Assembly (NCBI RefSeq): GCF_021134715.1 | Contig: NC_060026.1 | Span: forward strand, 16,049,001-16,113,000 | Length of the DNA: 64,000 nucleotides | Source of the DNA: Daphnia pulex | Lineage: Eukaryota > Arthropoda > Branchiopoda > Diplostraca > Daphniidae | Direction: 5' to 3' | Shown: piece by piece, positions 5,968-58,790 of the stretch | Layout of the letters: every line of letters starts with the position of its first letter | Position numbering within the stretch: the stretch's first letter is position 1 | The notes under the pieces: model-generated | Database searches by the model: none | Told to the model about the DNA's origin: nothing | Seen by the model: only the letters and a program-made list of their open reading frames with translations | Program-made: the position numbers and the translations under genes

Positions 5968-8051
5968 TCAAAGTGACAATGAAACATCCTCATCCAACAT
6001 CCAACCAGTGAAGTGAGTAAAGTGGCGGAAATCGTCAAACAGGAGAACCGATTTTACAACCGAAGGAAGCTGACGAGGGATTTGTGGTTCAATAAGTGGC
6101 GATACGGTGTCAATTTGCAACCAGATTTCGTCGCCCTGTTTCAACTTCAGTGTCGTTTGAAAACTCAACGGACTGTATTGCCCGGCCACAGTGTTGACGT
6201 CTTCAATAAAAGTCCGCCCGGTCAGTTGTCCATTCAAATAAAGATCCACCCCTATGTAGAGTAGACCGGAGAATTTTGGGAATTCGGCCAATCCTGAGAA
6301 CGCGAAGAAATAACTTCCCGCCCTAGGAGCAGTGAAAATTCCCGTCGTCAAATTAATAGCGTTCCCGATGTTGACAAGTGCCATATTAAAGGGGATGGAA
6401 ACGTTGACTTTGGAGAAACGTTCACTTCTCTGCACGTAAAAGTAGGTGGGCACAGATTTGACGTCGGCGTACCCGATCCACTTCTGGAATCCTGCGGTTA
6501 ATAATTTCAACAATTAACTGGATCACTATGCACTTAACGGTATGTTTGTAAATTACCTGGATCCTCGGGGAGTTTTGTAAAGTCGCAGTAAACACTTTCC
6601 ATCATTGCAGATCCCACGACAGAGTAGACGCCATTGAGGGAGTGTCCAATACGCCAAAGATCCTCGCAGGATTTTGGCATTCCCGAGATGGTCACCTGTC
6701 CAGAACATTGGAATCGGCCGAGTGTATGGACTCCGGATGAAATTTCAAAATGTGTTCGGCCAAAATTCAAACGAGTGATGGGCAAAAGTTTCTTATCGCT
6801 GATGGTACCTGGCAAAATGATAAAACCCATGCAGGTAATTTAATTTTTAATAAAATAATTTCCTATTTATTTACCAGCGTCGGTCAGTTGCATTGGTGAA
6901 ATCGAGTCACAGTTGCATTTAGCATTTGCGTCAACGCAATTTTGATCAATGCTACACTGACAGCCATGGCCTTCCGACATATTTCCGGACCAATAGTAAT
7001 GCGGGTTTCCATTTCTGTCATTCCACCAGGCATAAGGGACGTTGTTGAACTCGAAGGGGGCGTAGTTACAGTCGTACTGCAAAAACATTTTACATTCAAA
7101 ATTAATTATTTGACCATTTATTCAATTTTATTGTATCTAATAATTGTGGAGGAGAATTTGACTTACTGCAATCGATTGGTGACATTCGGTTGATAATTCA
7201 GCCAACGCTGACATTTGTTTACTAGTTGCGTTGTAATTGATTGCCCTGGAATAACATCCGGGTTCTACGCAATGGCCCACATTCATCGGCGACTCGCTGT
7301 CGTGAAGAACCGAAGTCGTTCCTATTTAAAATCCCCACACAACACCACAGGAAATGAGAAAACAATTTACCGAACAATGTCATATTATTAGCAGGTTACC
7401 TGTCGTCATGTCGCAGTGGACGAAGATGGCGTCATCTCCAACTCCCTGGCCATCCGGATCGATCCAGTACATTCCGGATGGGAGAGAAAGATCATTGGAA
7501 CGAATTTCTCTGCACGTTCTCAATCCGCTCGCTTTGACATATTGTTGGGCAACTTCCAAATTGTCCAAGTCCAATTTCGGGAAAATATTTGGCTGCATGG
7601 ATTGAATGGCCACAAGCATTTCCTTGTGTTTATGCACATTGGATTCCAGGTGAACGATTTTGGTCGATAAATCTTCTTTGATCAAATCAATTAAATTCCT
7701 CTTCGAATTTTAGATAAGAAATTGTTTCAATTTCAATCAAAGGATATGATATAGGTAAATTAATTAATTATACTTCGACCAGTCCTTCGAGTCGAATGAG
7801 TTTGGTTTCCAGTTCAGCCACTTTTTCTTCCAGTTTAATTTCTTTCGCTGCCGTTTCCTCTTTGAATTTAATCTTTGAATTTTGCCAATGAAACTAATCA
7901 ATTTTAAAAAGTTCTTTAATTGAATCAATTGTTTTCTTACGAAATTGTTTCTTAGCTGCTGCAGTTGGTCCTCGAGTGAAACTGCGCTAGAAGCCGAAGT
8001 CCAACAAGCGAAAACCAACAAGACACCGATGATGAAAAATTGACGAGCCAT
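5968..8051 (-). CDS. Secreted coiled-coil, fibrinogen-like and C1q-domain protein
   Basis: Seven exons (8051-7941, 7872-7774, 7700-7400, 7321-7167, 7076-6875, 6808-6557, 6491-5968) join in frame to 547 residues. The start at 8051 puts a signal peptide (MARQFFIIGVLLVFACW) first; an in-frame upstream ATG would spoil it. Residues about 25-130 are a heptad-type coiled coil. A fibrinogen-like, Caspr-like module follows, with SGMYWIDPDG and VHCDMTTG near 145-170 and a cysteine-rich part (HGCQCSIDQNC). Next is a short module SCEDLWRIG...VYCDF near 340-370. Residues about 385-525 are a C1q domain (VPTYFYVQRS, GIFTAPRAGSYFFAFSG, LKQGDEIWLQ). C1q domains trimerise and bind ligands, so a secreted lectin-like or immune recognition role is plausible but inferred. 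The SCEDL-C1q part is shared with the pseudogenes at 45 and 48 kb. Confidence 0.88.
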
Positions 8052-10427
8052 TTGCTGGTCGACTCTGATATTAGTCTCGGATGACGTCTCTTTCCCAACT
8101 GGTTGTTGCATCACAAATTGGGTTCGCTATTTATTTAGCGGTCACCGAGAAAATGAAGCGCTCCATATGTGAACCCTTCACCTCTACAAGAAATCACTTC
8201 CTTATGGTAGCGCCCGTTTCCCAGGTACCCAAAGTTCCATTTACCTACATTCTCTGTTCGTATTGTTCTAGGGTCATGGCACCTAACGGTGTAAGGCTCA
8301 TCACCTCGGCTAACAGGCAATTAAACTTAAAAATAGTGGTCGTCAATCATTTGTTAATAGATGACATCTTGTGGTCATGCCACCTGTAGTACTTTCATTT
8401 TATTTTCGAGAGTATTGGGTCCGACAATTCGATGCGCAGTCAGTGGTTACGTTGTCGTTGACTTTTGAAGTCGTAAACTATCCACGAGTCCAGTCCCAAA
8501 CAATTCTGACATTTATGTTGACACCTTGCAGCTATTTACCACACGTTACATTCGTACAACGGGGGCCTGCAGGCAATTTCATGTAATTTGGGACTAGGGT
8601 AATGAAAAGAAATTGTCCAAGGTTAATTTTGTTCGGCCATCTTCGTAGGTTGCAATTTTAATTCAACAGACAAAATGGAGGATGAAAGAGGGAACGCAAA
8701 TTGACATAATTATACGTTGTTTAACATCAGTTGGAGACCCAGGTAACACAACGAATTGGTTGCAACACGATAGGTGTGCAACGTTCGGAGTCACGCGGGC
8801 ATTGCCCAGCGATTCGTTACGTTCGAGAAACAGGCAATTTGGTTTATTACCTGTGAAATCTACCGTAAATCCTTTCGACGTCCGGGTACGGATTACTCGA
8901 GGCAGGAATTCTGCGAAATTTTACAGCTACCGATGAATCAGCCGCAAATCAAGCGGCACCCAGTTAAAATAATATGTATTCGCTAGCTTGTTATCGATAA
9001 TGTGTTAAATTAATGTGGGTTTAATATATTTGGCTTAATCATTCCCTACAAATTGTTCATACGAAATTGTGGTTATTATGTAATTGATTGATAGATGCTT
9101 TTAGCAAATCGTTAGCGCATTGACGTGATGACGTCATTTGAAAGGAAACAAGGAAAGTACAGCCATCTAGCGGTAAATCTTACAACTTTTTGAAAAACCG
9201 ATCGTGACGACGGCGATCTGGCAACGCCAATCAAAATGATTCTGCAATGTAGAAAAAGACTAAAGAGTGGAAGAACAAATCACCTGAGCAGAGGGTTACG
9301 GAAACAAGTAAAGTTAACTTCTCGAAAAATTCGGTGGAAATATTTTTTAAAAACTGGCTGCTTAAAGGGCTGATTTTCTGTTTCAAATGTTTTGACACGT
9401 CTTTTGTTTCAACGCAGTTACGGAAGTATTTAAAGACTTATAACAACTCGGGGAAGAAAATAGATTTCTTGGATTTTGCACCTTTCTTTATGTTTACTGG
9501 CTGGTTGCACTCTCATAAAGGGGCTCTCCAATCTGGAGGTCAATTGCCTTGAGGTAGGCTCTCGTTTTTTTTCGTCCACTCGTTTTTATTGCTTATTGTC
9601 TTTAATCAGACTGTCAAACTTGTATAATATGGGATATTGTTTACAGTGCTGCTGCAAGTTTTAGTTGAGTTCCCAGGGATTGTCATTTATCAAACCCCGA
9701 GTGATGTAACACAACAAATGCAGTTGCCACCAGGTGAATCTTCTCAAGATGTTTCAGTGTATCGGTGAAACAGCTGTGCATTTCTTGATGCCGTTACCAG
9801 GCAGACCTGAAAGCTGCAGTGTGTTGTGATCGAAGGAAGTTGCTTAGCCTGCTGTGGTGCATAATATTGATTGCTTAACCTCATTTTTGTGGTGGAAGCT
9901 AGAAGTTATCAAATATGCCAGTACTTTCTCCACCGGTGAACCAACATTGCATGAATTAAGTTGATTTTTAGTGAAATGCCCTTCTCTTTGACATTTGGGA
10001 ATCCAACATCTGTCTTTGGTATTGACGTTGTAACACAAGAGTGTTGTTTGACAAGGGTGTTTAGGGGAAAAGTCAGTCCAGAGTTTGCACAGCGTGACAA
10101 GTCTCCTAATATGGCCATATTGACTTATTGATTCAGCATGAAACCTCAAGGTGATTGTTGATGAAGTGCTGTGGTGGACTGGGTGTGAGTGTGTGTTCGT
10201 GTGTGAGCCGCATCACATGTGCCGTACACAATACGGAAGTGAAAGCGGAAGTCGAGGGTTTTTTAGCCAAGGGAAGGGTTCAGAGGAAGTGGTGTGGACT
10301 CGTTCTTCAGGGTTTCCAGCAATCGATACTATACATAGAAAGAAAGACAAAATAGTGGTCTCTTCCTGTCGTCGATTTATTGCCAACATTTCACGATTGT
10401 TTTCTTTTTTTATTTATTATTTACAGT
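8052..10427. other. Intergenic region between C1q gene and trc
   Basis: No supported gene. Short ORFs at 8081-8986 and 9334-9664 lack domains and splice partners. On the minus strand a taaataaatag element near 8135 could serve as TATA box for the C1q gene. Promoter and 5' leader sequence of trc must lie toward the right end. Confidence 0.5.
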
Positions 10428-25922: not shown

Positions 25923-27220
25923 ATGGGTAAATATTTATTTTTAATTCAATTCGTGAATCAATTCCATTTTGTTCCTAGTTGTTTATTTGACTTGTAATTT
26001 TTGAAAATTAATTGTCATATTGTATGTCGTCTACAGTTAACTATGGCGTCGTGCTGCTGTTGGGTGTCGTATCGTTGATGGCTGGGTCGACCACTGGTGT
26101 ACCGATGTCTCCTGGGTATGGTGGATACCAAGCAACAGCAGCGAAAGAATACTACCCCACGCCGCCGCCCTACTACACAACAATAACATACGCTACACCG
26201 ACCTACTACACCGAGGCCCCAAAGTACTACACCACCAAGGCACCGGAGTATTACACCACAACGTACGCTGCCCCTAGCTACTACACCGAAGCGCCAAAGT
26301 ATTACTCTGCCCCGAGCTACACCACGAAAGCGCCCGAGTACTACACGACTGCGTATGCTGCCCCAGTTTACTACACCGAGGCTCCCAAGTATTACACTAC
26401 TACCTACGCTGCCCCAACTTACTACACCGAGGTTCCCAAGTACTACACCAACAAGGCACCCAAGTATTACACTACAACCTACGCTGCCCCAGCTTACTAC
26501 ACCGAGACTACCACGTATTACTCTGCTCCTAGCTACTACACCGAGGCTCCAACTTACTACACCACCAAAGCGGTGGAATACTACACCGAAGCGCCTAAGT
26601 ACTACACTACAGCCTACCTTCCCCCAGCTTACACCACCAAGGCACCGGAGTACTACACCACCAAGGCACCGGAGTACTACACCACCAAGGCACCGGAGTA
26701 CTACACCACCAAGGCACCGGAGTACTACACCACCAAGGCACCGGAGTACTACACCACCAAGGCACCGGAGTACTACACCACCCCGAGCTACACAACCACA
26801 ACTAAGGCGGTCAAGTATTACTACACAGCGGCTGCCCCTTCGTACTACGTTGAACCTAAATACTACACTGATGCTCCAGTTTACTACACCACAACTTACT
26901 CAACACCTAGCTATTACACCGAAGCCCCCAAGTACTACACCGACAAGGCCGAATATTACACAACCCCTTATGCTGCCCCAGTCTACTACACCGAGGAATC
27001 TAAGTATTACTCTGCTCCAAGCTACTACCAAACAGAGGCTCCTGTTTACTACACCACCAAGGCCCCCGAGTATTATACAACTACTTACGCTGCTCCCACC
27101 TACTACACCGATGCTCCGAAGTATTCCTATGCCCCGAGTTACTACACCACGAAGGCACCTGAATATTACACCACAACCTACGCTTCTCCAGCTTACTACA
27201 TGGAGGCTCCTAAATACTAA
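25923..27220 (+). CDS. Secreted Tyr/Thr/Pro repeat protein (cuticle- or adhesive-like)
   Basis: Exon 1 is only ATGG (25923-25926). Exon 2 is 26037-27220. The total is 395 residues. The signal peptide is NYGVVLLLGVVSLMAGSTTG. The rest is low-complexity sequence of blocks such as APxYYTEAPKYYTT and KAPEYYTT; Tyr, Thr, Ala and Pro dominate and there is no cysteine. Six perfect 24-bp copies encode KAPEYYTT. Such Tyr-rich secreted proteins are known as cuticle, eggshell or adhesive matrix proteins, cross-linked through tyrosines; which applies here cannot be seen. The tiny first exon that encodes little beyond the start is common in arthropod cuticular genes. A TATA/Inr promoter lies upstream. Confidence 0.85.
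26639..26782 (+). repeat. Six perfect 24-bp coding tandem repeats
   Basis: aag gca ccg gag tac tac acc acc repeats six times without a mismatch, while the flanking blocks vary. This points to recent expansion or homogenisation, and probably to length polymorphism. Confidence 0.95.
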
Positions 27221-42287: not shown

Positions 42288-43015
42288 CTTTAATCGGATT
42301 TAAAAAAATTACAATTCGTCAGCGGTAGGACTTTGTAACAAGACCATCGTTAGTTATTAATTGAACACTAGATTCATTCTACGACGAACTTATTGATTCC
42401 CCACATCATGCCACCTTCGATTGCAACAGTTTGTCTTGCTTTGTTTTTTTCTTTTTCGTCACATTTGGTTATCAATTAGTCAAGTTCATCTGCAGCTTCG
42501 TAACTTTTAGGTCTTTTACACATGTATGATAAACTTGATTACTGATTATGAACAATGTGATTAACACAGGACACTAAGCTTAGACAATTATCAACTTCCC
42601 CATGATTTTCTTTTTTGTTAAATTAAAAGAATCCATGTCAATATTTACCTTAAATAAACATTCAAAATGTGCTGAATGTTATTGGATGTTTGGGGCTTAT
42701 GTATCTTCGATTCTATGGGAGAAAAATAAATTGTGTTTAGTTTAGACATCAGTCGGCTGTTGAATTATTATGAAAATGAACTGTGTTTGAATACTTCATG
42801 TGAGACACAAGATTAAAAAAAGAAATAGTTAATAGTATCACAAAGTACGTATGATAATCAAACCATTTTAACATCTACATGTTGTAGATGTCATGGGAAA
42901 AGGTATTCACAAGAAAACAAAATGTTGACCAGAGCTAGTATAGTAAGCAATATTTCCAGGATTTCATACCCTAAACACATATAAAATTCACTTACATGGA
43001 GAAGCAAATGGTAGC
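42288..43015. other. Intergenic, no feature seen
   Basis: AT-rich sequence without ORFs. A short palindrome acatctacatgttgtagatgt lies near 42872-42892. Confidence 0.5.
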
Positions 43016-43885
43016 AGCCAACGGGTTAACTAATAAAAATGAACAATACCAAAAATGAAGATCCACGATGGGGATCTTGCATGCTCTGTAAAAAATATAT
43101 TACAATTTACATGTAAAATTAATAAAGCATGTAAATCTTTACCTTCTCTGAGAAGCACACTGAAATGTCCATGATGAAAATACCATAAAAACAGAATTCA
43201 CAGCAACCAACAGCATTACTCCACCTTTTGAGATAAATTTCCTGATGCTAAAGTAAGTGTCATGAAGTATTGCAGTAGCTCGGTGATAGGTGATATTGAT
43301 GCTTATTACCTTTATCATATGGGTGATGAATTTAGAAAGGCATTTGACGTGGTGTGGTTGTTGTGGTAGCAGTAATGGGAAAATATCTTATCTCCACACA
43401 TTTGTATTCCACTGTATGTGGGCTTCAAACTTTTTAGGCTTTTGACAGCATGAGGATCTAATGGATGGAAAGTTTCTTGGCGCTCATCAGTAAAAACTTG
43501 TTGGAATGACTGACAGTAGCCTATGCATCTAGAATTTGAAGAAATAAGTTACTATGCTATAATATAATAATATGGAAACTAGGTCAAGATAAACCTGAAA
43601 AAGATACGAAGTTCAACTCGGTATTTGAAAACACAGGAATTTAAGTATAAATTAGAAACAATTTGTTTCGCCCATTCCGCCCAAACTTTGCCTCGTTTCA
43701 CGATGTAGGAACAACATGGCCGACACTGCCGACATCTAGTAGTCAAGTTTTGAATCTTAAGTTAGTTGCACTTGCACAGTCACAGACTCAGCAGTCAGCA
43801 TGCGCTCACAGTCACAGACTGACAGACAATATGACATTACAGATTACACGTCGTAACTTTCATAAGTTATAACTGATAACTTCAA
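43016..43885. repeat. Diverged copy of 30.93-31.68 kb
   Basis: The segment starts with one end of the piggyBac-like MITE (gcagccaacgggttaac). It then follows the 30.9-31.7 kb region in the same orientation, including the exon-like blocks (cctgatgctaaag, gaagcacactgaaatg) and the flanking gacatctagtag...gttttgaatctt block. The second exon here contains a stop after SGNLSQKVE. It is a decayed duplicate. Confidence 0.8.
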
Positions 43886-44519
43886 AACAAATTCTAAAAA
43901 GGGAAAAAAAAACTATTGGCCTCCGGATCCCGGGGGCCAATAACCATTTTAGCTGTTATGCTTTTAGCTGTATAGCTTGTAGCAAATTATGCATGAGTAT
44001 GAGTTGGCCTCCTATATTATGTTGTGTAACTGTTAAATAGTCCTAGTATGTGTAATTTTCTACTAAATACGGGAAAATAAACTAATTCAATCTGAAATTG
44101 TGCTTTCCTAAATTTCACTTTTGTATCTTACGGCTTTGCTGGAGCAAATCAAACCGCTAGGTGCTCTGCCTGCAGTCTGACGTTGCGCTATTCTTTTGCC
44201 TCTTGGTGTAGTATTGAATCTCCCGGAGCAACGTCAGCGGTCAGCCCCTTTCTACCCCATTTAATCATTTAATCATTTATGACTGCTGGGCTACTACCCC
44301 CGTCAGAGGCGCTGCGGCCAGATTGTTTTGGATATTCTTTTCTTTGACATTTGTGTCATTCGATTTTTTTCGTGCAGCGTGTGAATATGTTTGTGAGTGA
44401 TTCAGTGTGTGAATTTGTGACAACACATATTCGGATTTATTTATTGGATTCCTGTTTTACAGACACGTTAAACGGTGAGTTCCCTTCTTATTTTCTTATT
44501 CTTTTCTTCTTATAAAATA

Positions 44520-45660
44520 GATATTTGGGCATGTGTAGCTAATTTGCTTTAGATTTTTGATAGATGTGGCCGTTATATTAAAACATTTTTGGAACGACTT
44601 CATTGTAAACATGAAATGTGTGCAGACTTCAGAGGTAGGCCTAAATAAATTTATAAGTTCAACTTGATTTTCAAATCACTCATTTTTTTTATAGGCCTAC
44701 TGTTTATTTTCAGGCGGTGCAAATTTTTAGCAAACTTCTGATGTGGAGAAATGGTCGGTTAAAAAAGGAAATGCTTTCGGGTACTCAGGACGCGGATATA
44801 AAACGAGAAGGAGAAACTATTAAACAATCAAATCAAACGAAAGATGCGAATAAAAAACAAAATAAAAGATGACAAACGAGAAAACTGACAAGTCAAGAAA
44901 TAATTCAGAAGAACATGACAGAAAATCAGAGAATATAGAAAACATCCAACAACAATTACGACTCAAACAGTTGGGATGACGTGGATAGAATCAGTTCAAT
45001 CATTTCAGAGAAAATGGCAAACGATCCCGATGGTTCCAACAAGGTCAACATTTCTAAGGAAGACGCGGAGAAAATATTACAAGAAAGTAGAGACCACGTC
45101 CAATGGGACGGAGAGAAATTCGTGCCCAAACCGATGCAACTCAGCCCAATCAATTTGGCCAAATTTCGTGATTCCCCAATCGTTTCAGGATCGCAACGTT
45201 CGTGTCCGTTACACGACCGCTGAACTGTCGGCGCCAATCAAAATGATGGAACACACAGAATTGACTGTCACTCGAACCTCGTGTGAAGATCTGCAGAGAA
45301 TCGGACACAAACTGAGCGGATTCTATTCCGTCAAGGGATCGAAGAAGATGGAAACCGTTTACTGTGAATTCTATCCCAATCAAAATGGTACGGTGACGTG
45401 TTTTTCTTTCAATTGTCATTGTTTCATCTAAATCACGTTTGGTTACAGAGTAAACAGAAATGGATCGGATACACTGACGTCGATTCGGCACCCGTCCATT
45501 TCTACGTAAAAAGAAATTCTTCTTTTCAAACACGATGAACTCCGATTCCGGTCGATTTGGCGGTGGTGAACGAAGGTAATGCCATGAATTAGACATCGAA
45601 CTATTCTCTATTCTTGGCATTTCTTCTCATTTGCAGGAGTGGCGAAACTTTTACCTTCAT
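44520..45660 (+). pseudogene. Fragment 1 of a modular secreted protein (SCEDL-C1q type)
   Basis: This resembles the gene at 54518 (DVDRISSIISEKMAND, DHVQWDGEKFVPKP, SPINLAKFRDS) and then continues where that gene stops, with TSCEDLQRIGHKLSGFYSV, METVYCEF and a C1q start (KWIGYTDVDSAPVHFYV). It is broken: an extra C in ccccaat at 45173-45176 shifts the frame after FRDS, a stop follows the C1q start, and more stops follow near 45588. No signal peptide exon remains. About 1 kb of it is repeated in inverted orientation at 47.47-48.27 kb. Confidence 0.85.
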
Positions 45661-46729
45661 CTTGGACGATATTTGATTCTTCTCCTATTTTTTGAACAGG
45701 AATCGAATCGGGAGGAGTAATGTTGTCGAGAATAAGAGCCCTGTTGATCAATGGAGTCCGTTTACCCTCCCAGTCGACGCTGAATCCGGCGGAATCGCAA
45801 TCGAATCGAACGCTCAATTCCCGGATGCCGCCACCGGACGTCCTAGCAGAAAAATGGCGTGTCCGCCGAGACGAAAAAGGAAGGCAGCAAATTGATTGTG
45901 GTTGTTGAATCTAGAAAAAGAAAAAACACTTTGTTTACACAAAGTGGAAGTACCATCGGAAAACAAAAGAAACAAAAGGTGAAACAAGAAATAGTAAAAA
46001 CGTGATGTGGATGGCTATGAGGTCGAGAATGGAGAAACACATCGATTCGTGTACACAGAATATGATAATAGATTGTCGGTTGCGGGAGTATTTACGGGTG
46101 GTGGGAAAGGATGCCCTTGTGACCACAAGGGCACGCCCCAAACACAAAAGTTTTCTTGGCTCGAATTTGTATCGTGATCGTGCCGGCGGTTAATGGGACG
46201 TTTTAAGCCGGAATTTGGGCAGATTTTAATTGTTCATCATCCTCCCACTCACGTCAACTGTATTTGTCTGCTGGACCTTTTCCATCATCATTTTCCCGGA
46301 TGGCGGCGGATGGCGGTGGCGATAGGTGACTGAATGTTGCTGAATACAACACGACGACGACGACGACAACTCGTTTGACGTTTCATCAGCCGCACTTGCA
46401 GCTTGATTCTCACATGTATCCGATCCCGTTCAACACGAATGCTGTTGACAACTACCTCCTCCGTTGTAGCTACTCCCCGTACCCCCCAACTTAAATCCCT
46501 TCTAAAAGCAGACATGTCCATTGTGTGGGCATGGATGGATTCCGATAAGCGCATTGACTTTGTTGCGTTATCTCGAGCACATCAACTCATCCAATCATTC
46601 CCGCAAGAGCCAACGACTCCCGAGGTTATTTAATACCGACAATGTTCCCATTCCGCCACCCCAAAAATGAGACAAGGAGAAGAAAGTCGACACTCACCCT
46701 CATCTAAGCTGTCGAGATCGTCGTCACGA
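45661..46729. other. Spacer between the pseudogenes
   Basis: Overlapping ORFs on both strands, none with a domain. Some of it may be decayed C-terminal sequence of fragment 1. Confidence 0.4.
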
Positions 46730-46739
46730 ACTCCTCCCG

Positions 46740-47480
46740 CTGCAAGTCACGGCCGACCCAATATTTGCCTCCGTAGGAAGGTGAAGGGCTGCTGGTGCAA
46801 GAACGGCGACGGTGGTGTTTACAAAATCGGCCCGCATTTGGACCAACAGGACCAGGCGTTCCATCGACCGTCCACTACTTTTTTACAAGGGAGAAAACAA
46901 AAGTTCGTTACATCACCTTTGTGTTGGCGCATGGATAAAGAAACAACAACGAGTCGCTTACAAGAAACTATGACGTCATATGAGGCAGACAATGACGCTG
47001 ACGAGTACTGATTCAACAAGCTATAATGATAACACAAATTAACGACGCATTGGTTTCTAAATTAAACTCGGAAATGGGATCGGATGTGTAAATCTGACCA
47101 AAGACTCTGCGGCTTTTTTCAAGTTCATATTCGGCTCTCTGGCACAAAAAAACTACCAAAGTTAGACCGACAGTTCTATGTAACATTTGAGTGATGGGTT
47201 CGGGTCAGCGACCGAATCTCGGCGTTCGAGACTAACCAACAACTTGGCATACAAATGAGACGGTAAATAAAGTCCTCGAGAAAAGTGGAAAGTGGAAACA
47301 AGGACGAAGTGGATTCGATATGTTTAAGTTTACGGTCAAACTCTTTGTACCTGGACAGATGGAGGTGCAATCGCCTTTCTGGAAGTTGAAACCTGGATAG
47401 GTGCGGCCGGCGTTGAGCGGCGTTGGGTTCGTGCACAATCGAGTCCGTTTCTGAGTCCCGCAACCAGCAAGAGGTTGGTA
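46740..47480 (-). pseudogene. Thrombospondin type 1 repeat remnants
   Basis: Two exon-like pieces are seen on the minus strand. At about 47480-47355 it reads CGTQKRTRLCTNPTPLNAG followed by a Cys-x3-Cys end, and closes at a donor. At about 46862-46750 it reads DGRWNAWSCWSKCGP followed, after a frame change, by CKHHRRRSC. Trp spacing, CG and RxRxC match TSP1 repeats. The second piece is frameshifted. Both lie downstream of the C1q start of fragment 2 on the same strand, so the ancestral protein may have carried TSP1 repeats. Confidence 0.65.
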
Positions 47481-48270
47481 TGGCCGGAAATCGGAGTTCA
47501 TCGTGTTTGAAAAGAAGAATTTCTTTTTACGTAGAAATGGACGGGCGCCGAATCGACGTCGGTGTATCCGATCCATTTCTGTTTAGTCTGTAAACAAACG
47601 TGATTTAGATGAAACAATAACAATTGAAAGAAAAACACGTCACCGTACCATTTTGATTGGGATAGAATTCACAGTAAACGGTTTCCATCTTCTTCGATCC
47701 CTTGACGGAATAAAATCCGCTCAGTTTGTGTCCGATTCTCTGCAGATCTTCACACGAGGTTGGAGTGACAGTCAATACTGTGTGTTCCATCATTTTGATT
47801 GGCGCCGACAGTTCAGCGGTCGTGTAACGGACACGAACGTTGCGATCCTGAAACGATTGGGGAATCACGAAATTTGGCCAAATTGATTGGGCTCAATTGC
47901 ATCGGTTTGGGCACGAATTTCTCTCCGTCCCATTGAACGTGGTCTCTACTTTCTTGTAATATTTTTTCCACCTCTTGCCATTTCTCCAATTTTTTCAAAC
48001 ATGTCCGCCAGTTTTTCCGAGTTTCCCTGTCCGCTGTCCTCATGAGAAGTTTGCTCAAATATGCACCGCCTGAAAATAAACAGGATAAAAAAATGAGTGA
48101 TTTGAAAATCAAGTTGAACTTGTAAATTTATTTAGACCTACCTCTGCACACATTTCATGTACGAAAAGCAGTCGTTCCAAATCATGGCATCAGCTGAAAA
48201 TGTTTTAAAATAACGGCCCCCATCTATAAAAAAATATAAAGCAAATTAGTTTTACATGTCCAAATAATTT
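47470..48270 (-). pseudogene. Fragment 2 of a modular secreted protein (inverted copy)
   Basis: Reverse-complement copy of 44.52-45.55 kb, with the same extra base in the FRDS codons (ttggggaat, 47858-47866). The shared frameshift shows that the copy was made after the gene had broken. On the minus strand it reads an exon with DAMIWNDCFSYMKCVQ (about 48226-48144). Then follow GGAYLSKLLMRTADRET, EKILQESRDHVQWDGE, TSCEDLQRIG and the C1q start. The RISSII segment of fragment 1 is missing here. Confidence 0.85.
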
Positions 48271-49689
48271 TTCTATCAATTTTGTCTCTCATTTTTTTAT
48301 TTGTTCGATTCTAATGTTCATCCGCGTGTCTAAAGGAGATGAGCAGACGCAAGACGTTCCGATTTTCAGAGGGTGGAGTCGGATTGACTCCGACCGCCAA
48401 TCCGCAAGGTTTCTATTTGGATTTTGTTTCGGAATGTTATCTCACTTTAGTTGCTATACACAGGGTGCTCGACAATGGAAAAGAAACGGCTGGTAGACTC
48501 TATAGGGGTGTTTGTAGAGCTACTTTTTCTTGGGTTCGTTTCCTTGCCCATTTCATAACGACATTTTCCCGAAAAAAAAAATCGTCTAGAAAGATGCCGC
48601 GAAAAACAAACCGTTGTTTTGACTTTCCAATCTAATGTAGCGATATCGTAGAAAGTAGAAGTAGCTATAACAAGATCGTCATTTTTGTCCTCAGTCGCCC
48701 GGTATGACGACACATTCCTCTGCTGTTTATTGTATGCCCGACGGCCATATATCAGTAAGTCCGATACCGATAGAGCGTTGCACTAAATATATTTCTTCTC
48801 AACTTTGTAAGCTGTTTGTTCTACTTGTCTATTATTTGATTTATTTGTCTTCTCCTTGATAATTTCGGATGTTATTCAATCCATTCCTTTTACGAGATTT
48901 TCAACAAGGCGGAGAAGGCGAGCAAACAAAGACGACGACCTCTCATCTATACTCGTCACATCAAGAGGGAACAGCAAGTGGGCAAATGGAAGTCAAAAGT
49001 CCAACAACAGGACTTAATTGGATGACCAAAAAAGACCATCGATCGCCTTATCCATCCGTTTGGAAAATTGAAAGAAAATTAAAGAACCGACGGATGAGAT
49101 AAAAAGATGACGAAAAAGAAGGAAGCGATAAAGATGCAAAGAAATCAAAGATACAACAAGGATAGCCACTCATCATCCCCACTGGCAGACGCATTTTTAA
49201 ATTATACTCGGCACTCAATCAATTTAAAAAGAAAAGAGGATGAAAGGACTAATAAAACAGCACCCTTCCATGCTGTTGTCATGCGTCCTATTTCCGAAAC
49301 TTATGCTCTAACCTAGCGATTAATACCTAGTAGTTTAACCCCATCCTGCCCCCTCAGCCCTTTTCGAAAGACGTCGCCATCTTAAGTTCTTTGACGGATT
49401 CGATTCCGGGAAATCACAGTGGTGAAAGGAGTGAAAATGCAAACAACGTAGAGATAAAGAATAATATGTTTGATCGTTCCAAAGTTGAAAGTGATCATTC
49501 CGAACAGAAGCACCTTTTATTAATGCACAACAAAAAGTTGTTGCCCGGGTCCTTGTCCTTGAAAACGAAAACTGACGTTCGGCACGGCCACCGCGCCCAG
49601 CTTTTTTGACTCGAAAGGAATGTTGCGAATAAATTGAGCGGGCCGCCCCTCCTCCAGGAAGAGTTCTCAACTTTCCTTGACTCAAAAAA
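48271..49689. other. Intergenic, no gene recognised
   Basis: Short overlapping ORFs without domains. Nothing further seen. Confidence 0.4.
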
Positions 49690-51450
49690 CGCTCACGCTC
49701 TCTTTGATTCTTTTTCTTCTTCTTTCCCTACAGAGTTGTTTGATGACAAGAAAAAGAAAAAACGTCGTTTCTCAATCCTTGACACAAACAAACACCAGTG
49801 TTATCGCTGCTCCCAATCAAGCCCCAATTCCTATGATTCGTCAATCGAAAGGTTATCGTCAGGTTAAAAAAGTGATCATTACCCGGGCGACATCTGAATA
49901 TAAGACTCTGCCCATCCCACAAAACTAAAACAAATCAAAATAAAAAAATATAGTAAGACCATGAAGAAGAAATAGGAAAGTTATAAGACATGAGCGGCCG
50001 GAGCTGGTATGTTGACGTTTCTATCGCATCTGTCATGCTGATAATTTCATGTTCTGCAAAGCGAAATGGAATTTGAGATTTGAGCGTGATTCGACATCGG
50101 GGTGCGGTCAGGGAAACCAGCAGCCGAAATGACAACGACAGCAGCGGATGTCTTTTTTTTTCGAAAAAAAAAAATAAAAAATAAACAATTTCTCCTGCTA
50201 AAAGATATGGCAAGGGCAGGTAACATTCGCCCATGGCGAATACAAACCTTTAATACAAAAATAAAAAATGTCTCAAGGGCAAGGCGACGAGGTTGCACTA
50301 TCTCGCGAACTATATTTGTAGAACTGTAAAGGAATATTGGACGACAGCGGTGACACCCTATCCAGCAGCGTATATCGTTATCTAATTGCCTGTCTATCTT
50401 ATACGTCAGGCGAGTAAATGAGCGGGAGCATCAACTGTAACCCAATCCTTTTCAGTGGGTTGGAGGTTATATAGTCGGTCGGTTGCCCCCCGTCACGTTC
50501 GCACTTGGCAGCCAAATAAAACGCCAAAGTTCCAGGAGAAAATAAAAATAAATTCACGGCAGATGCATCAATATCACGCCATTTATCTTTCTTTCAACTG
50601 CAAAAGTCAACCAACCGTGATATGTTTCATTAACCATGAAACGAAGGAAAGAAAGAATTGAGAAAAAAAAAATTAATAATAAAAGGATGAGGGCGATAGG
50701 AAGTCGTGTAAAAAGACTATGTGCTAGTTGAATAGGAAAATTGTTTCGATGGAAATGAGACAACCGGTTGGGTTTTTTTTTTTCATTCCAATTCAAAGAA
50801 AAGAATAAAGAAAAAAACAAAAGATAACTTGTGTGATGTGCCATAAGAGGCCAATGACGATGCGCGTACTACGCGGCATTTCTGTTCTGGACGTTTCTTA
50901 TTTATAAAGATAAAAGGTAGATAAAAATAAAAAAATAAAAATGGAAAATTGAAAATAAATAAAAAAACAGACGACATTTGTAGGCACATGAACGATGAAC
51001 CTCCACATTGGCTGAAAATTTTTCTTTCATTGTGAAAAACAAAAACAAAAATTTGTGTGTTTTCTCACTTGACACATTTTCCCCGCTCGTTTGAATCTGA
51101 CGTTTGTGCAATTGACTCGATTTTGAATACCGAAGAAAGAATGACGAAAAGAAAGAAACGAAACTCTCAAATTTCACACACTCGCCAAGTGTAACCACCA
51201 CCACACGACACAGTTTTAAATCAGGTGTGGGGATTTATAGAGGAAACGTTCCCCGCGCATAGCGACAGTAAAAAGACCCGCTGACTTGTCTTTCAAATGT
51301 AAAATGGCCGTATTAATAAGTAGCGACTTACCTAATAGTAGCGGGACGTCCCATCACATCTCGTTTTCGGTTGTCTCGGAGAAGCTTCGTCTTGACCTCC
51401 AAAGATGAACGCAGGTCCTTGGAACAACCTAAATATTTAAAAAATGATAT
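49690..51450. repeat. Segmental duplication, copy 1
   Basis: Collinear with 56.6-58.8 kb in the same orientation. Blocks match nearly base for base, for example ccagtgttatcgctgctcccaa, gagcgtgattcgacatcgggg, cgacagcggtgacaccctat and ggttatatagtcggtcgg. The match includes a TATATAG box (about 50468) and 3' blocks such as cctccacattggctgaaaa. The copies differ by several deletions. No ORF is conserved across both, so the conserved parts are non-coding or regulatory. Confidence 0.85.
51332..51428 (-). CDS. Possible single exon of unknown gene
   Basis: A minus-strand exon with acceptor aatatttag and donor gtaagt reads CSKDLRSSLEVKTKLLRDN then RKRDVMGRPATIR. The copy near 58690-58780 has the same splice sites, but a base change and a shift break the frame. 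A further donor (aattg|gtgagt) lies near 52046. No start, stop or family can be given. Confidence 0.3.
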
Positions 51451-54313
51451 ACAAAAGATCAAAATAAGAACACGATCCAAATTCACCTTTGAGAGAGAAT
51501 AAAAGATAAAAAAACAAAGGAATGCCATCAAGAATGTCGTGAAAAATAGGGTGGATTAACACACACACACACAGCAAACGTACACACATACATTTCCATT
51601 TTGATCAAAGGTTCAGACTCGGTGCAAAGTCTGAAGTTATCTCTCGCCTATCTTGTTTGCCTCGTCGTTTGCTTTTCTCTTTACAAAACAGAAATGTCGG
51701 GGATTAAACATAAAGAGAACAAGTTGAGTGAACGACGGAGACATGGGCGATAACCTCCTAAGTTAATAAGCGTAATAATAGCGATAATCCCCTCCCGAGA
51801 GCAAACGCAATACACACACACGCGCGCGCGCCATTTGGAACTAATAAGCCACAAGACTCGCGGGTGGTCCCTCCTCCTTTTTCACGCATCCCATTTTGAT
51901 AATTCCCGGTTGTTCTGTTTTTCGTGTGTAACCCACGTCTATCCGAGGATAAAGCTAGCCGCTAGCGTGAAACCTCAACGTCCAATCCGCCCCAAACAAC
52001 AAACGCAATGTACAAATAGGCTGATGAAAAAGTGAAAAAAGACTCACCAATTTATGATAATCTCGAGCAGAAGATGAAGATAACGAAAGTTTCCGCAGAA
52101 AACCAAGGGAGTGTAGGAATAGAGGACAGCGGCAAATAATGAACGGACGAGCGATGAGAGCCCATCGTGAACAGTTTCACCGTTCACGATGGGCTCTAGT
52201 GACCGACTGAACTACGTAGCTAAAAAGAACGACGGGCTTTTACTAATACCTACTTGGAGCCCAGCCCTGACAGAAAAATAGTCGTGGGGACGATAAGAGG
52301 AGGGAAAATAAAATAAATGAGATAAAGAAAAACAAACAGACACACAACCAAGGGCTCCTTTCTGGATGAATATCGAAGACAGTGGCGCATGCGCAGCTCT
52401 CTCTCTTACGTCACACAATTCCTTCCCTTCTCTCCTCTAATAGGTGTGTACGAGTTCTCCCGCCAGCAAAGCCTGAGGTATAAAAGCAGAAAAAATAATC
52501 AAAAACTAAAACTTTTCTTTCTCCTTCTCTCTCCCGACATCTTTGCAAGTTTTTTAAAAATTTTCCCATCATTGGAGCACCAACAAAAGCCGATAATGCA
52601 GGGCAGCCATCTTTGAACGTACATAACCTTCAAAAAGTTGGAACACGCGCCGACTCTCTTGTTAACTTCCCCCATCCCCAATGCATACCGTATTCCGCTA
52701 ATTCGAACGCCCACATGCCTCTCACCGAACAATCAATTGACACAACACACACGACAACGTGCAGCCCCTATCAGTGGGATTTGGGAGCTTTTAAAAATGT
52801 GTTCCACATTACACGTTGTCTCAATCAGGGCTTCTTTACTACTGGATGGATTGAGTTGGACGCAGAGGTGGGCTTGGCTTTGACTTGGATGGTCTATCCA
52901 GACACAAATGACATGTTAGACAAGAACTTATTACACAAGCACATGTTTACCTCTGCTTCCTGGAAGTTTGCTGCATGCTTTTAGCTGGAAGTGGAAACCA
53001 TAGTACATCACTACTTGAGTAACACATCGTCTGCTGTGGAAGTACCAATTACTCAAGAGCCAAGAGAGAACCTGTAAAATAAAAGAAATACAATCATTTT
53101 GTTTTTAAGTTATTGTCATCAATGTTCTTAATGTGGTAGTAAAATAATAGTGTTATAGTGCTTATTACCTGTTGTATGCATCCAAAATTTAGGGACGTAA
53201 AGCCAATGTTTGGTAGCAAAAGCTGTGGCTGATACCTAATAGGGAAACAAAACAGACAAAATATCTAGAATCTAGGAATAGTAAAAATCATTATTCATCA
53301 TCAGCTGTCAATTTTGGCTAAGAAGATATAAAACGGCAATCGGTCGTATTTGAACGAATTAAATTCTAGTAAACACGCAGATATTCAAACTCGACTGTTG
53401 GCCTTTTTAAAAATGAGCATATTTGGGAAATAAGATGATCTGTTTTAATCAATGACCGTGTCAAGTCGCCTGTCGATAACCTCGACACGAAATTCAAGTG
53501 CGACGTGTTCGGTTTTCCACGCTGGGCGAGAGGCGAAGACGAAAGATAATAGTCACATAAATAGAACCAAAGTATCAAAGTCTCATGAGTTTCATTTCAA
53601 ACATGTTGGGAAAATGCCAGCATTTTTGAATATTTAATAGGATTTTTTTAAACAAAAATAGAAAACGGCGCACCTAATAAAATCATAAAATTCGAGCGAA
53701 TATCGTCTCAAGTGCATCTGATGTGCTCACATATTTTCATGCCCGTCTACACAGATAAGGTGACCTCTGTTTCATTAATTTGATGTGAATTGATTTCAAA
53801 CTTTCTTATTTTCTAATTGTCCGTGTGTTCATTATCAAATTCGTAATTATTCACATTCAAAATAAAAAGAGAAAAATTGAACGAGAAGAATAAACTGAGA
53901 CCCCCAAAAATCCACAGATATATAAAAGCAGTTCATTTTGAGCATCATATCGTGTGTCATTTCTAGGAATCCAGTAAAACATAACGAGCTAACAGGATTA
54001 TCAGACCATACGACGTGGCATGTGGGATGGGACCTTTGGATCGGGCGGATTTGGGCAACAATTAATCAACTAACCGGCAGTATAGAGAGCGGATTTGTTG
54101 ATCCACCCGAAATGTTATTACTCGTATCACTTGGCCAGGAATATTAAATTACATTTCTGTTGATACTAGTCTTTCATCCACTCGCTGCTGGATCGCGAAA
54201 ATCAATAATAAATAAATCAATAATTTAATCTGGGAACCTGACACACTTGCACACGCAATGCTGCCGAAACCCTACACAAAAACCCATTCGAGTGAATCTG
54301 CCCAATTTTTCAG
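51451..54313. other. Intergenic between duplication copy 1 and the 54.5-kb gene
   Basis: Contains (AC)n/(CG)n microsatellites near 51556 and 51812, and a palindrome around 52180 (gagcccatcgtgaac...gttcacgatgggctc, 52158-52197). A minus-strand exon-like piece at 53237-53171 reads VSATAFATKHWLYVPKFW and is joined in phase to a short end at 53072. That last block resembles 34.05 kb. No complete gene. Confidence 0.45.
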
Positions 54314-54350
54314 TATAAATACGCAGTCATTTGTGAATTCCTATTCAGTT
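54314..54350 (+). promoter_or_regulatory. TATA box and initiator
   Basis: tataaata at 54314-54321 is followed 31 bp later by the initiator ttcagttt. It lies upstream of the secreted gene at 54518. A 5' leader of about 170 bases would result. Confidence 0.7.
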
Positions 54351-54517
54351 TCAAACTTACACATCAACGTCAAGTCGTGTCAATATTTCTCGTTAATTCG
54401 TCGTTAATTACATCTATACATAAGGTAGACCTTTTTTCTAGTTTTATACAACGATATTGACTTCAAAGATTTGAATTTTTGTGAATTATAAAATTACCCT
54501 CCAGGCCTCCACCGAAG

Positions 54518-55943
54518 ATGACAAACATCCTCGCCATCATTTTGGCTTATTTGGCCGTTTACTGCAACTGCCAGTCAAACAACCCCGTTGCTTCATCTTC
54601 TTCCTGGGCGAAACTGAAAATCTCACCGGACACTTTAAGTTCCATGGAGTACGGCAACTTTCTCGTTGAAATTTACGAACGCGCCAATAATCACGAGGCA
54701 GCAATAACAGCCAGCCCAAAAAGGTATTTCTACTCTCCTCTCGCGCTATTGGACCACTCAAGTGCCGTTAGTTCTTACAACGTAGTGACGAAACAACAAG
54801 AGATGAGATTCCGCATTGTAATGTGGAGCAACAAAGTCCAAAAACAAGTCGTGAAATATTTGAACGAGATCGTCGGCCACGAAATTAAATCCGATCAAGT
54901 GAGAGTCCTCCCCTTGGAGAAGGTCCTTCTTACTAGTTACACACCCCCAGTGGATTTTTGGCTGAATCCATGGTGGACGTACTATGACAAGAGCAAAATT
55001 TTAAGTCTTTCTCTGACGTGTTATGACCGGAAAGTTTGCGACAAACTGGCCAATCTAATGCGGACCAACCCCGAACATTTAAACCATTTGAAACTCCTGT
55101 ACAGTTTGTCATCGCAGACGTCACAAACCAAACAGGCGTATATCACCATCGACAGTATCACTTCCGGTACATTGGTCTTGACTCTTTTAAAGAAATTTCA
55201 AATGACAAATCAGATTTATCTGACGGCCAACGACGAGAAGAAAATGTTGAAGGAAACAGCCACAAACATCTTAATGGACACATTTGATGACTCCGAGGTT
55301 TGGTCTAGAAACTCGGAAGTTCAAATTTTCAATATTTTAAAAGGTTTGCTGGTCACATCCAGGACGACCATCGAAGAAGAAAATGACAAAATGTGGGACT
55401 CTGTTTTCTGGGATGACGACAATTACCGGCCGGACAAGACGGCCAAAACTTTGAACGAAATCGTCAACAAACTGGACAAGGAAACTCAAAAGATATTGAC
55501 TGACATGTTTCAAAAAGCGGAGAAACATTCGGTCAATTCAAACAGTTGGAATGACGTGAATAGAATCAGTTCAATCATTTCAGGGAAAATGGCAAACGAT
55601 TTCGATTTCGACGACGTTAAAAAATTATTAGAAGAAAGTATTGACCACGTCCAATGGAACGGGGAGAAGTTCGTGCCCAAACCCATTCAACTGAGCAGAA
55701 TCAATTTGGCCACATTTCGTGATTCCCAATCGTTTCAAGATCGGAACGTTAGTGTCCATTACACGACCGCCGATCTGTCGGCGCCGATAAAATTTGAAGA
55801 ATTCGCAGGACTGACCATCGCTGATGAACTCACAGGTTTGGAAAAAAAAAATAAGCAAAAATTTTATTCAATTTGATTTAATTATTGGAGAAAAATTAAT
55901 TATTCTTCTGGTTAACTCTCGTTTTCTTATTACGACAGATTGA
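54518..55943 (+). CDS. Secreted protein of an uncharacterised family, short form
   Basis: The main exon 54518-55835 encodes 439 residues. A donor (acag|gtttgg) and an acceptor at 55938 would add one Asp and then TGA. Unspliced, the frame ends at 55876, so both readings stop early. The signal peptide is MTNILAIILAYLAVYCNCQ. The body begins FLVEIYERANNHEA and continues with RFRIVMWSNKVQKQVVKYLNE, QVRVLPLEKVLLTSYTPPV, CYDRKVCDKLANLMRTNPEH and TNILMDTFDDSEVW. The last part (DVNRISSIISGKMAND, DHVQWNGEKFVPKPIQLS, RNVSVHYTTADLSAPI) matches pseudogene fragments 1 and 2, but those go on into SCEDL and C1q modules that are lacking here. AATAAA lies at 56192. The family seems invertebrate and unnamed; the function is unknown. 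Confidence 0.88.
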
Positions 55944-56600
55944 CCACCGAACCCATTTCCCGGGTTTCATGTTGCAGAAGGAAATTGCCGCGTCCCTTTG
56001 ACTTTGAGCTTCAACATCATCATCGCGGCGACAAGATTCAAAATGCGACGTCAACACGGACATTTAGTGAAGGGAAATTTAAGGGGCTGGGAATATTATT
56101 GATATGATTTTAATTCATTAGGGGATAGGAATTTCTGTAGTAAAAATTTAATCGCCAGATATGAATATTTCTTTTTTTTTAATTTCGCTTAAATAAACAT
56201 TATGAAAAAAATACGCCTGCACGCCTCGTTTTTCTTTAAGGAAGTTTTTCACAGTTTCACTATTTTAATTTGACTTATTTCCATTTCATTATTTACTTTA
56301 CGGGAAAAAATTGGGGAAAATTGATGAATCACGCTCGATATACGGTGAATGATTGGCGCTGCAGATGGGCAACGTTTGGGATCTGTGATATGCTCTCGAG
56401 TCTCGACAGGTTCAATAACGTCCTGGGTGTTGAGCGTTGGCTCGGCAATGCGCTTTATTAAGTAAAACATCTCCTCGGCGAATTTAGTTGAATCGTGTCA
56501 CAGGTTGCGCCAAACAGCTAAACGGTGTCTTACAAAAACATCTTGTAAGTGTTGATCGTCTGCGTGATCGGAAGTGAGAGGAGATGACGGAGAGTCAAAA
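55944..56600. other. 3' UTR and spacer
   Basis: AATAAA at 56192-56197 probably ends the 54.5-kb transcript. No ORF of note follows. Confidence 0.5.
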
Positions 56601-58790
56601 ATCCCGCGAGAGAGGCTGTCACGAATCCGTCGTTTCTCAATTTTGGACACAAACAAACGCCAGTGTTATCGCTGCTCCCAATCAAGACCCGTCGAAGGAA
56701 TCAACGAAACTGAAAAAAAGGGAGGGGGGAGAGGTCGTCGTCATCGGGGATTAACGAAACCGGACCCAATTCCTACACGTCAATAATCGAAATGTCATCA
56801 TTTCAGCCCAGGCGACATCTCAATACTCTGCCCGTCCCAAGAAAATTAAAAAAATGAAATGAAAAACATGAGCGGCCGGTGCTGGACGTATGTTGACGTT
56901 TCTATCGCATCTGGCATGCTGATTACTCGATGACCCAAACAAATTCATGTTTCGCCAAGCGGATCAATGGCGACATGGCACCGCAAAAATAAAAATAAAA
57001 AATAGCAAATCAAACGAAAAGTGAGGAAAGAGAAGGGGGAAAAAATGTAAATCTAATTCATTTTTCCTTCTTTTCACTTTTCATTTTCGAACGGATGACG
57101 ACGACGAAACAGCACGAGTCCCGTTTCTTTTTTAATAGAGTATCGCCTGCTCCATTCTTTGTCCGTCAACATTTCTATCAGCCATGATGGGTTTAGAGTC
57201 GGGTTCAAGAAAAAGAAAACGAGATGGCCAGGTGATTGACCAAGTGATTGACCGACGTGTCCATCAATCCGATTTTTTGTTATCTTGATCAAAATCCTTA
57301 AGTGGTCGAAAGTGGTACAATATTTTTACCCGTGAACCTTTATTAGCCCGTCAGGCAAATGTGCAATTTCGCTACCTTTACTGATGCCTAGCTGAATGAT
57401 GAGCTAAAATGAATTCATTGCGTCCCCCATCCAAAAATAAATAAAATAAAAAGACTTTGGCTCTTTTCTAGCCATCGAGATTTGAGCGTGATTCGACATC
57501 GGGGTGCGGTCAGGGCAACCAACGTTCAACAGCAGCCAAAATGATAACGACATTGGATTTTTTTTTTAAACAATAAAAAACAAACAATTTCTCCTTATTG
57601 GTAGGGGTAATGTAGTAGCTAGAAGCTGTCACAAGGGCAAGGAGATAGGTCGCACTATCTCGCCAACTATATTTGGAGAACTGTAAGAGAATATTAAACG
57701 ACAGCGGTGACACCCTATCCAGCAGCGTATATCGTTATCTATTAATTGCCTGTCTATCTTATAAGTCGGGCGAGTAAATGAGCGGGATCATCAACTGCAA
57801 CCCAATCCTTTTCAGTGGGTTGGAGGTTATATAGTCGGTCGGATGCCCCCCGTCACGTTAGCACTTGGCAGCCAAATAAAACGCCAAAGTTCCAGGAGAA
57901 AAAAAAAAGAAAATTCACGGCAGATGTATCAAATTTCGTGCCATTTATCTTTCTTTCAACTGCAAAAGTCAACCAACCGTGATATTTCATTAACCATGAA
58001 ACGAAGGAAAGAAAGAATTGAGAAAATAAAAATTAATAATAAAAGGATGAGGGCGAAAAGGACGGCATGTAACAAGACTATACGTGCTAGTTGAGTAGGA
58101 AAATTGTTTCGATGGGAATGAGACAGCCGGTCGGTTTTTTTCCAATTTCAATTCAAAGAAAAGAATAAAGAAAAAAACAAAAGAAAACGAAGATAAGCGG
58201 CCAATGGCGATGCCCGTATACTATTACCGTATTACGCGGCATTTCAGGACGTTTCTTATATTAATAAAGGAAAAAGGTATTAGATCATTTAATTCCGTTT
58301 CTTTTCAGCGGCTAAAAGAGAGGGGAAGTGACCATAGAGTGGTTCCGAACGCAGACCACACACACGACAAAATTTACTCACGCATCGCAAACAAAAAACG
58401 GACGACATTTGTAGGCACATGTACCGCCACATTTGCTGAGAAACTTTCCGTTCATTGTGAAAAACAAAAACAAAAATTCACGCGTTTTCTCACTTGACAT
58501 TTTCCCCTCTCGTTTGAATCTGACGTTTGAGCGCGTTTGTGCAATTGTAGCAATTGCAATTGCAGCAATTGTAGGCTACGTCTACGTGGGGATTTAGTGG
58601 AAACGTTCTCCGAGCATCACGATTCACGACAATAAAAAGACTCGCTTACTTATCTTTTAACTATAAATAAGCGACTTACCTAAAAGTAACAGGACGTCCC
58701 ATCACATTTCGTTTTCGGCCGTTTCGGAGAAGCTTCAAATTGTCTTGGTCTCCAGTGAAGATGAACGCAGGTCCTTGGAAATGAAATCAC
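56600..58790. repeat. Segmental duplication, copy 2
   Basis: Collinear partner of 49.7-51.45 kb, same orientation, with an extra 0.6 kb inserted near 56.9-57.45 kb. The TATATAG box recurs near 57826. The gene at 54518 lies between the two copies. Confidence 0.85.

Follow-up and report, generated by a model that had tools for sequence, protein, structure and literature searches.

Members of a C1q gene family in the window

The stretch of DNA analyzed here (hereafter, the window) is a 64,000-nucleotide segment of the Daphnia pulex genome (contig NC_060026.1, positions 16,049,001 to 16,113,000, or C10:16049001-16113000 in the contig numbering used below). It contains four members, one apparently in working order and three damaged, of an extensive family of genes encoding predicted secreted proteins with a C-terminal C1q domain (Table 1). 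In these genes, C1q is preceded by a short module denoted SCEDL and by one of several fronts, among them a long region denoted head A. Genes of the window are named by their first position, and loci fetched from the genome (133.19 Mb, 13 contigs) for comparison are numbered with the prefix L.

The apparently working member, gene 5968, carries the SCEDL-C1q end behind a front different from head A, as proposed in the preliminary description of this sequence. Its hand-joined translation matches the Pfam families COLFI (E 2e-13; 50.5 bits, cut-off 26.2) and C1q (E 6e-13); taken singly, the C1q exon scores 52.6 bits against a cut-off of 23.7, and the COLFI exon also exceeds its cut-off.

The two relics, over 44963-45589 (+) and 47504-47983 (-), both join the end of the head A region to SCEDL and the beginning of C1q; in relic 1, the independent E-values (i-E) in hidden Markov model (HMM) searches are 3e-36 for block A3 of the head, 2.5e-20 for SCEDL and 2.6e-7 for C1q. 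The junction noted in the preliminary description is thus real, but it is one observation rather than two because positions 45060-45551 and 47976-47484 form an inverted duplicate of 493 bases with 97% identity. Furthermore, both relics lack the same parts at the junction: the stalk is gone, as are the last part of the head exon and the 5' portion of SCEDL. In the head genes that were read, extra exons separate the head from SCEDL; given that neither relic retains them, the relics carry a single internal deletion and do not reflect the normal gene structure.

Gene 54518 contains an uninterrupted open reading frame (ORF) of 452 codons (54518-55876) that starts with a leader, hydrophobic on the Kyte-Doolittle scale (hydropathy only). 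The frame as read overshoots the conserved splice donor that closes the head exon. About 60 bases past this donor begins DNA that matches the 3' end of the C1q exon and the 3' flank of L006 (71% identity, E 4e-28) and, more weakly, those of L008, L005 and L007. It includes a stub of C1q (55921-55986, model positions 129-150) that is weak alone (HMM i-E 0.05), so that by the Pfam cut-off the gene has no C1q apart from this stub. The neighboring copy L010 (C10:16122937), which contains a stop, is 84% identical to 54518 across the same deletion junction, which implies one deletion that is older than the duplication. The lack of C1q in 54518 is therefore a deletion product, not a natural C1q-less form: the preliminary description was right that a full C1q is absent, but its contrast between one front with and without C1q results, within the window, from this deletion. 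An alternative C1q-less architecture is ruled out for 54518 by the stub and by the deletion it has in common with L010. Splicing at the remaining acceptor-like site (read by eye) meets a stop almost immediately, so that, with splicing or with readthrough, the protein would end after the head.

The ratio of nonsynonymous to synonymous substitution rates (dN/dS) between 54518 and L010 is 0.74, compared with 0.16-0.50 between 54518 and 26 other copies (synonymous sites being near saturation in the lowest of these). Eight further pairs were compared, and seven of them gave 0.22-0.35. These values indicate relaxed constraint in the truncated lineage (54518 and L010), although the eighth pair, L010-L011, is likewise high (0.59). 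In a comparison within 43001-58000, direct repeats with 81-92% identity were found at 49763-50640, 3' of the relics, and 56628-58000, 3' of the 54518 gene, and suggest the trace of a larger tandem duplication.

Table 1. Parts of the C1q family genes found in the window
Feature	Position	Strand	Basis and remarks
Gene 5968, COLFI front	5968..8060	-	Pfam COLFI and C1q, HMM matches; exon borders inferred
Leader and coiled coil of gene 5968	~8060-7560	-	
COLFI-type blocks of gene 5968	7520-6699	-	
SCEDL of gene 5968	6671-6579	-	
C1q of gene 5968	6477-5983	-	
Relic 1	44963..45589	+	A3 of the head split over two frames, then the junction left by the deletion; SCEDL 45279-45371; C1q start 45464-45589 broken by a stop
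Relic 2	47484..47983	-	Inverted duplicate of relic 1; HMM matches
Head A exon of gene 54518 (truncated copy)	54518..55835	+	Open frame, genome matches, HMM; leader and head of ~440 residues
Head A blocks of gene 54518	A1 54596-55132, A2 55139-55525, A3 from 55538	+	HMM matches
Phase-1 splice donor CACAG/GT closing the head exon of gene 54518	55836..55837	+	Conserved G/GT codon
Remnant of the C1q exon (3' end) and 3' flank, left by internal deletion	55895..56151	+	DNA match, HMM stub

Architecture of the family

The head of 54518 has 118 genome matches at E<=0.001, including itself (the best other match, 6.6e-206); the long ones among them are mostly open frames of 450-650 residues with 43-74% identity. 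The matches also include 15 short heads. Aligned with the first 200 residues of head A, 14 of these show 29-35% identity and one (C7:935490) shows 48%; the two that were read, L067 and L068, share 66% identity. SCEDL, searched with the module of relic 1, and Pfam C1q each have at least 150 genome matches (150 of 236 and of 242 candidates, respectively, were scored and listed), and all 150 listed C1q matches exceed the Pfam cut-off. Chance similarity of these segments, which would have undermined the preliminary description, is refuted by these numbers and by the existence of genes in which the head occurs together with SCEDL and C1q.

SCEDL and C1q are adjoining exons of one cassette: 108 of the 150 listed SCEDL matches have a C1q partner on the same strand, and the spacing is near-constant, at 105-165 bases in 107 of these pairs (834 in the remaining one). 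Profiles were made from the fetched loci; head loci were taken with 1.5 kb flanks, and many of them end before the cassette. In L012 and L024, the head (A1-A2-A3), a stalk exon, SCEDL and C1q follow in order (the C1q of L024 is clipped at the end of the locus), and L029, L036 and L037 contain head, SCEDL and C1q in order, with the stalk repeats picked up by another profile. The usual head gene would thus consist of a leader, the head, a variable number of phase-1 exons with heptad spacing (the stalk, probably a coiled coil), a cysteine-bearing SCEDL exon and C1q. The other predicted classes place a short head, a COLFI front or a coiled coil alone before the same end, so that, as the preliminary description held, one C1q cassette is found on different fronts. 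COLFI-type blocks followed by SCEDL and C1q are present in L003/L044, L004, L039-L043, L053, L055 and L057, as in gene 5968, and L006, L045, L051, L054 and L056, read by eye, consist of a leader, coiled-coil exons, SCEDL and C1q. Coiled-coil exons are visible in six front-less loci that were read, and the coiled-coil locus L047 has a run of nine stalk repeat matches in HMM searches. L047-L049 (G000:C10:614259-641294) are tandem coiled-coil C1q genes with a period of ~10 kb.

The exon borders are largely of one phase. A phase-1 G/GT donor closes the head exon in all 27 loci listed, including 54518, out of 30 head loci fetched. Of 40 distinct stretches checked by script, 39 have a phase-1 GT donor at the SCEDL-C1q intron, and the remaining one, L058, has GC in the same phase, although one of those counted, L007, looks one base short after SCEDL by eye. 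The 5' border of SCEDL in head genes is also of phase 1 (by eye), and 39 of 59 stalk repeat matches, which have 3-4 heptad spacing (by eye), are followed by a phase-1 G/GT (because some of the loci overlap, genes occur twice in this count). Border introns of the same phase, together with moved modules, are the class 1-1 arrangement expected of exon shuffling.

Head A itself could not be assigned to a known family. The long N-terminal region of 54518, called uncharacterized in the preliminary description, is an open frame with a leader, and we found no convincing Pfam or PDB match for it. A Pfam scan of 28 head members at E<=1 gave scattered weak matches, the most common being HSL_N (10 of 28, best E 0.00064), which was judged a chance match; COLFI was not among the families listed, and a PDB profile search with the head returned nothing at E<=10. 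A pattern scan for head relatives matched 91 stretches in viral contigs and 55 in prokaryote contigs, none of which was confirmed.

Distribution of fronts and C1q exons in the genome

By combining the 150 listed Pfam matches with 43 selected by eye from 150 matches of a divergent C1q query, we arrive at a minimum of 193 places that carry a C1q exon, not all of them intact. Contig C10, with 12% of the genome, holds 112 of these (binomial against the length share, P ~1e-51), 91 of the 112 lying past 10 Mb. The head set comprised 45 long and 15 short places out of the 118 matches; it excludes same-gene fragments, the other four tandem copies on C7, C10:13096485 and further broken pieces, and the relics. 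For COLFI, 74 of 80 matches were kept, the six others being long matches in two loci that probably encode fibrillar collagens. Fronts were linked to C1q by position, so that a link denotes proximity rather than a proven transcript. On this basis, the nearest upstream front of the 193 C1q places is head A in 34 cases, a short head in 12 and COLFI in 59, with none detected for 88. Conversely, a C1q exon lies no more than 5 kb downstream of at least 34 of the 45 long heads and at least 12 of the 15 short ones, and no more than 3 kb downstream of at least 59 of the 74 COLFI matches.

The remaining 11 of the 45 long head ORFs, including 54518 and its neighbor, lack a listed C1q match within 5 kb; this count dropped after the second C1q query, and some head-only assignments may be false because the C1q counts are lower bounds. 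L026 (C3), considered as a C1q-less head gene, was ruled out by a C1q piece with a stop ~2 kb downstream. In L028, homology to L029 persists just 3' of the head and then disappears. Four distant head relatives (G000:C2:10772830, C2:11243972, C5:121179 and C8:13012390; 29-34% identity, frames of 478-506 residues) have no SCEDL or C1q within 5 kb downstream among the matches listed and are possible free-standing head proteins. Five tandem head A/SCEDL copies with a period of ~6.09 kb are located at G000:C7:2412313-2438265, each with stops within the matched head pieces.

Evidence for exchange of C1q ends between fronts

Phylogenetic trees were built for 38 distinct C1q sequences, from 45 near-complete matches. 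In the SCEDL+C1q tree, the C1qs of head genes fall in several places, and those of long and short heads are mixed within a clade supported at 100/98. In approximately unbiased (AU) tests, a separate clade of the seven main head A C1qs, apart from the short-head C1qs, was rejected (p 0.00094). The C1q exons behind the COLFI fragment of L008 and the coiled-coil front of L006 group inside the clade of head-gene C1qs. A clade of all long and short heads without L006 and L008 was rejected (p 0.0007), as was, for C1q alone, a clade of the main head C1qs without these two (p 0.0016). Thus, C1q ends seem to have passed from one front to another.

The clearest case is L008, where a second cassette sits after incomplete COLFI blocks. 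Its SCEDL is 90% like that of the COLFI-front locus L004, whereas its C1q is 76% like that of the head-front locus L007 and only 57% like that of L004. Sliding identity switches parent close to where the C1q exon begins, and the compared sequences are conserved over this stretch. For each of six parent pairs, a MaxChi-type test gave chi values of 73-95, which were reached in 0 of 500 shuffles, with breakpoints from ~90 bases before the C1q model to just inside it. In the host head gene of L008, the first C1q match ends at model position 61, and upstream of the L006 gene there is a remnant of a head-type SCEDL; in both loci, we infer that a second front was placed before the C1q exon of a head gene. 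The L008 breakpoint falls around the SCEDL-C1q intron and the beginning of the C1q exon, and the cassettes involved are homologous; recombination or gene conversion among paralogous copies seems a likelier reading of this exchange than shuffling of unrelated genes. The exon shuffling invoked in the preliminary description is therefore upheld with respect to phase-1 borders and moved C1q ends, and modified with respect to the mechanism.

Several points weigh against this interpretation. The bootstrap of the main SCEDL+C1q tree had not settled, and the front labels are positional for 7 of the 11 head A rows and all five short-head rows. Four outlying head A rows were set aside, after inspection of the tree, before the AU test of the seven main ones; similarly, the test on L006 and L008 was chosen after the tree was seen, and with SCEDL included, the clade of main head C1qs without these two gave p 0.063. 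For L006, the MaxChi-type chi values are only 30-62, which is not decisive alone, and the four intended controls gave 3, 13, 29 and 34, with 306, 5, 0 and 0 of 500 shuffles as high. The control L004 leans to the head type in C1q and might not be a clean parent. Finally, the L008 cassette lies in a damaged gene, with a stop in the head (L016) and an incomplete COLFI part, and hence illustrates the process rather than a working hybrid.

Likely function and evolution of the family

Taken together, these observations are best explained by a large modular family in which clustered copies swap C1q ends and deletion creates head-only copies, with a likely role in recognition; we consider this scenario probable, our confidence being slightly tempered by the partly positional tree labels and the one control that is not clean. 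C1q ends in other animals both bind ligands and trimerize, and a stalk with heptad spacing in front of C1q is in keeping with a secreted oligomer. Under the proposed scenario, the stalk would oligomerize the chains, and C1q, the head or both would bind ligands, most likely on microbes or particles. Between clustered copies, C1q ends would be traded through ectopic recombination or conversion, as evidenced by one chimeric stretch and, for the others, supported by the trees, and deletion would yield head-only copies, as shown for 54518 and its neighbor. A point against the scenario is that structure prediction, suggested in the preliminary description, gave no reliable fold for the window head: single-sequence AlphaFold models (422 and 185 residues) are of very low confidence (pLDDT 34 and 38).

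The main rival is a structural role in cuticle, matrix or hemolymph, with C1q serving for trimerization, which we consider unlikely. COLFI domains are matrix-like. In D. pulex, C1q and COLFI are over-represented among genes down-regulated by predator cues (PMC4514973), in line with such a role. Against it, the D. magna gene 11F-21.35, which encodes COLFI and C1q, lies close to the ABC/F Pasteuria resistance loci, and both trans-species polymorphism and up-regulation on exposure are reported for it (PMC11193740); large C1q families of bivalves are linked to recognition (PMC6835236). By analogy with the D. magna gene, recognition appears preferable.

It is also conceivable, albeit quite unlikely, that an ancient SCEDL-C1q gene gained its fronts a few times, with tandem duplication and conversion of C1q but no new functional combinations. 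A single clade of all head C1qs with L006 and L008 was not rejected (p 0.27), so that few exchanges may suffice, and front labels are clustered on the tree, with 12 changes compared to a mean of 20.8 after shuffling. Nevertheless, the C1qs of long and short heads intermix despite the low identity of the heads, and the exons of L006, read by eye, suggest an uninterrupted coiled-coil gene whose C1q is of the head type. A role for 54518 as a functional protein made of the head alone, for instance as a shortened decoy or regulator, seems improbable: its open frame with a leader and the other head ORFs lacking a listed C1q would accord with this, but the stub downstream, the deletion in common with a stop-bearing sister and the raised dN/dS, as well as the possibly false head-only assignments, argue against it.

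Beyond the scenario of end-swapping copies that we favor, the C10 cluster might be a germline combinatorial recognition system, in which head classes, variable stalks and ~190 C1q ends are re-paired via phase-1 exons. This stronger proposition is distinctly doubtful; if true, a crustacean that coevolves with its parasites would gain new secreted receptors by such re-pairing.

Other features of the window

Two long, apparently helical proteins without Pfam matches over the cut-off are encoded on opposite strands, at 35699-38090 (-) and 39173-41392 (+); the latter has 8 genome matches, including itself, its neighbor and two on C11 near 2.39 Mb. In addition, the window contains a gag-like retroelement frame with a zinc-knuckle pattern (by eye; 16504-17422, -) and a low-complexity ORF with YYTTKAPE-type repeats (26012-27220, +).

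Comparison with known systems

To our knowledge, arthropods are usually held to make little use of C1q. Fibrinogen-related proteins (FREPs) and other modular invertebrate recognition families likewise show exchange between modular genes, but involve different domains; for FREPs, somatic diversification has also been claimed.

Large C1q families of Daphnia and the COLFI+C1q combination are already known. The D. pulex genome has 172 C1q and 56 COLFI genes by InterPro and a paralogue family, Omcl23 'Neurexin/Complement C1q', of 82 genes (PMC4514973). A COLFI+C1q transcript has also been listed among unknown transcripts with differential expression (PMC4551569). D. magna 11F-21.35 has a COLFI front and C-terminal C1q, as does gene 5968 (PMC11193740), whereas the portions of these Omcl23 and D. 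magna accounts covered here mention neither the head A class nor the SCEDL exon, the stalk exons or the exchange of ends (PMC11193740, PMC4514973). C1q is not mentioned in the corresponding portions of a D. pulex immune gene survey (PMC2685406) and of PMC12102780. The cladoceran-specific proteins of the Pasteuria loci have, in type 1, a C-terminal transmembrane segment and a YXXC/STAT motif (PMC9894429). A possible precedent is D. pulex XM_046606473.1, reported to have a conserved domain that often accompanies C1q among related Daphnia proteins (PMC13322756, 2026; the data are not shown there); by this description alone, and with no architecture given in the part covered, the domain is possibly the same head. 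In the parts of the literature covered, we found no description of the head-SCEDL-C1q architecture and no prior account of the head A class, the SCEDL exon shared by the fronts, the stalk of phase-1 exons or the exchange of ends.

The bivalve C1q domain-containing (C1qDC) proteins (type II, coiled coil) comprise hundreds of genes, expanded by tandem duplication, and 55% of those in the Eastern oyster carry a coiled-coil tail; the part of that account covered here mentions no head A or SCEDL exon (PMC6835236). Here, a single crustacean harbors a C1q family of nearly bivalve size, located mostly on one contig, with a head unlike known families and a visible exchange of ends. Given the trans-species polymorphism of a COLFI+C1q gene by the resistance loci, a link between the re-pairing of ends and parasite specificity becomes testable.

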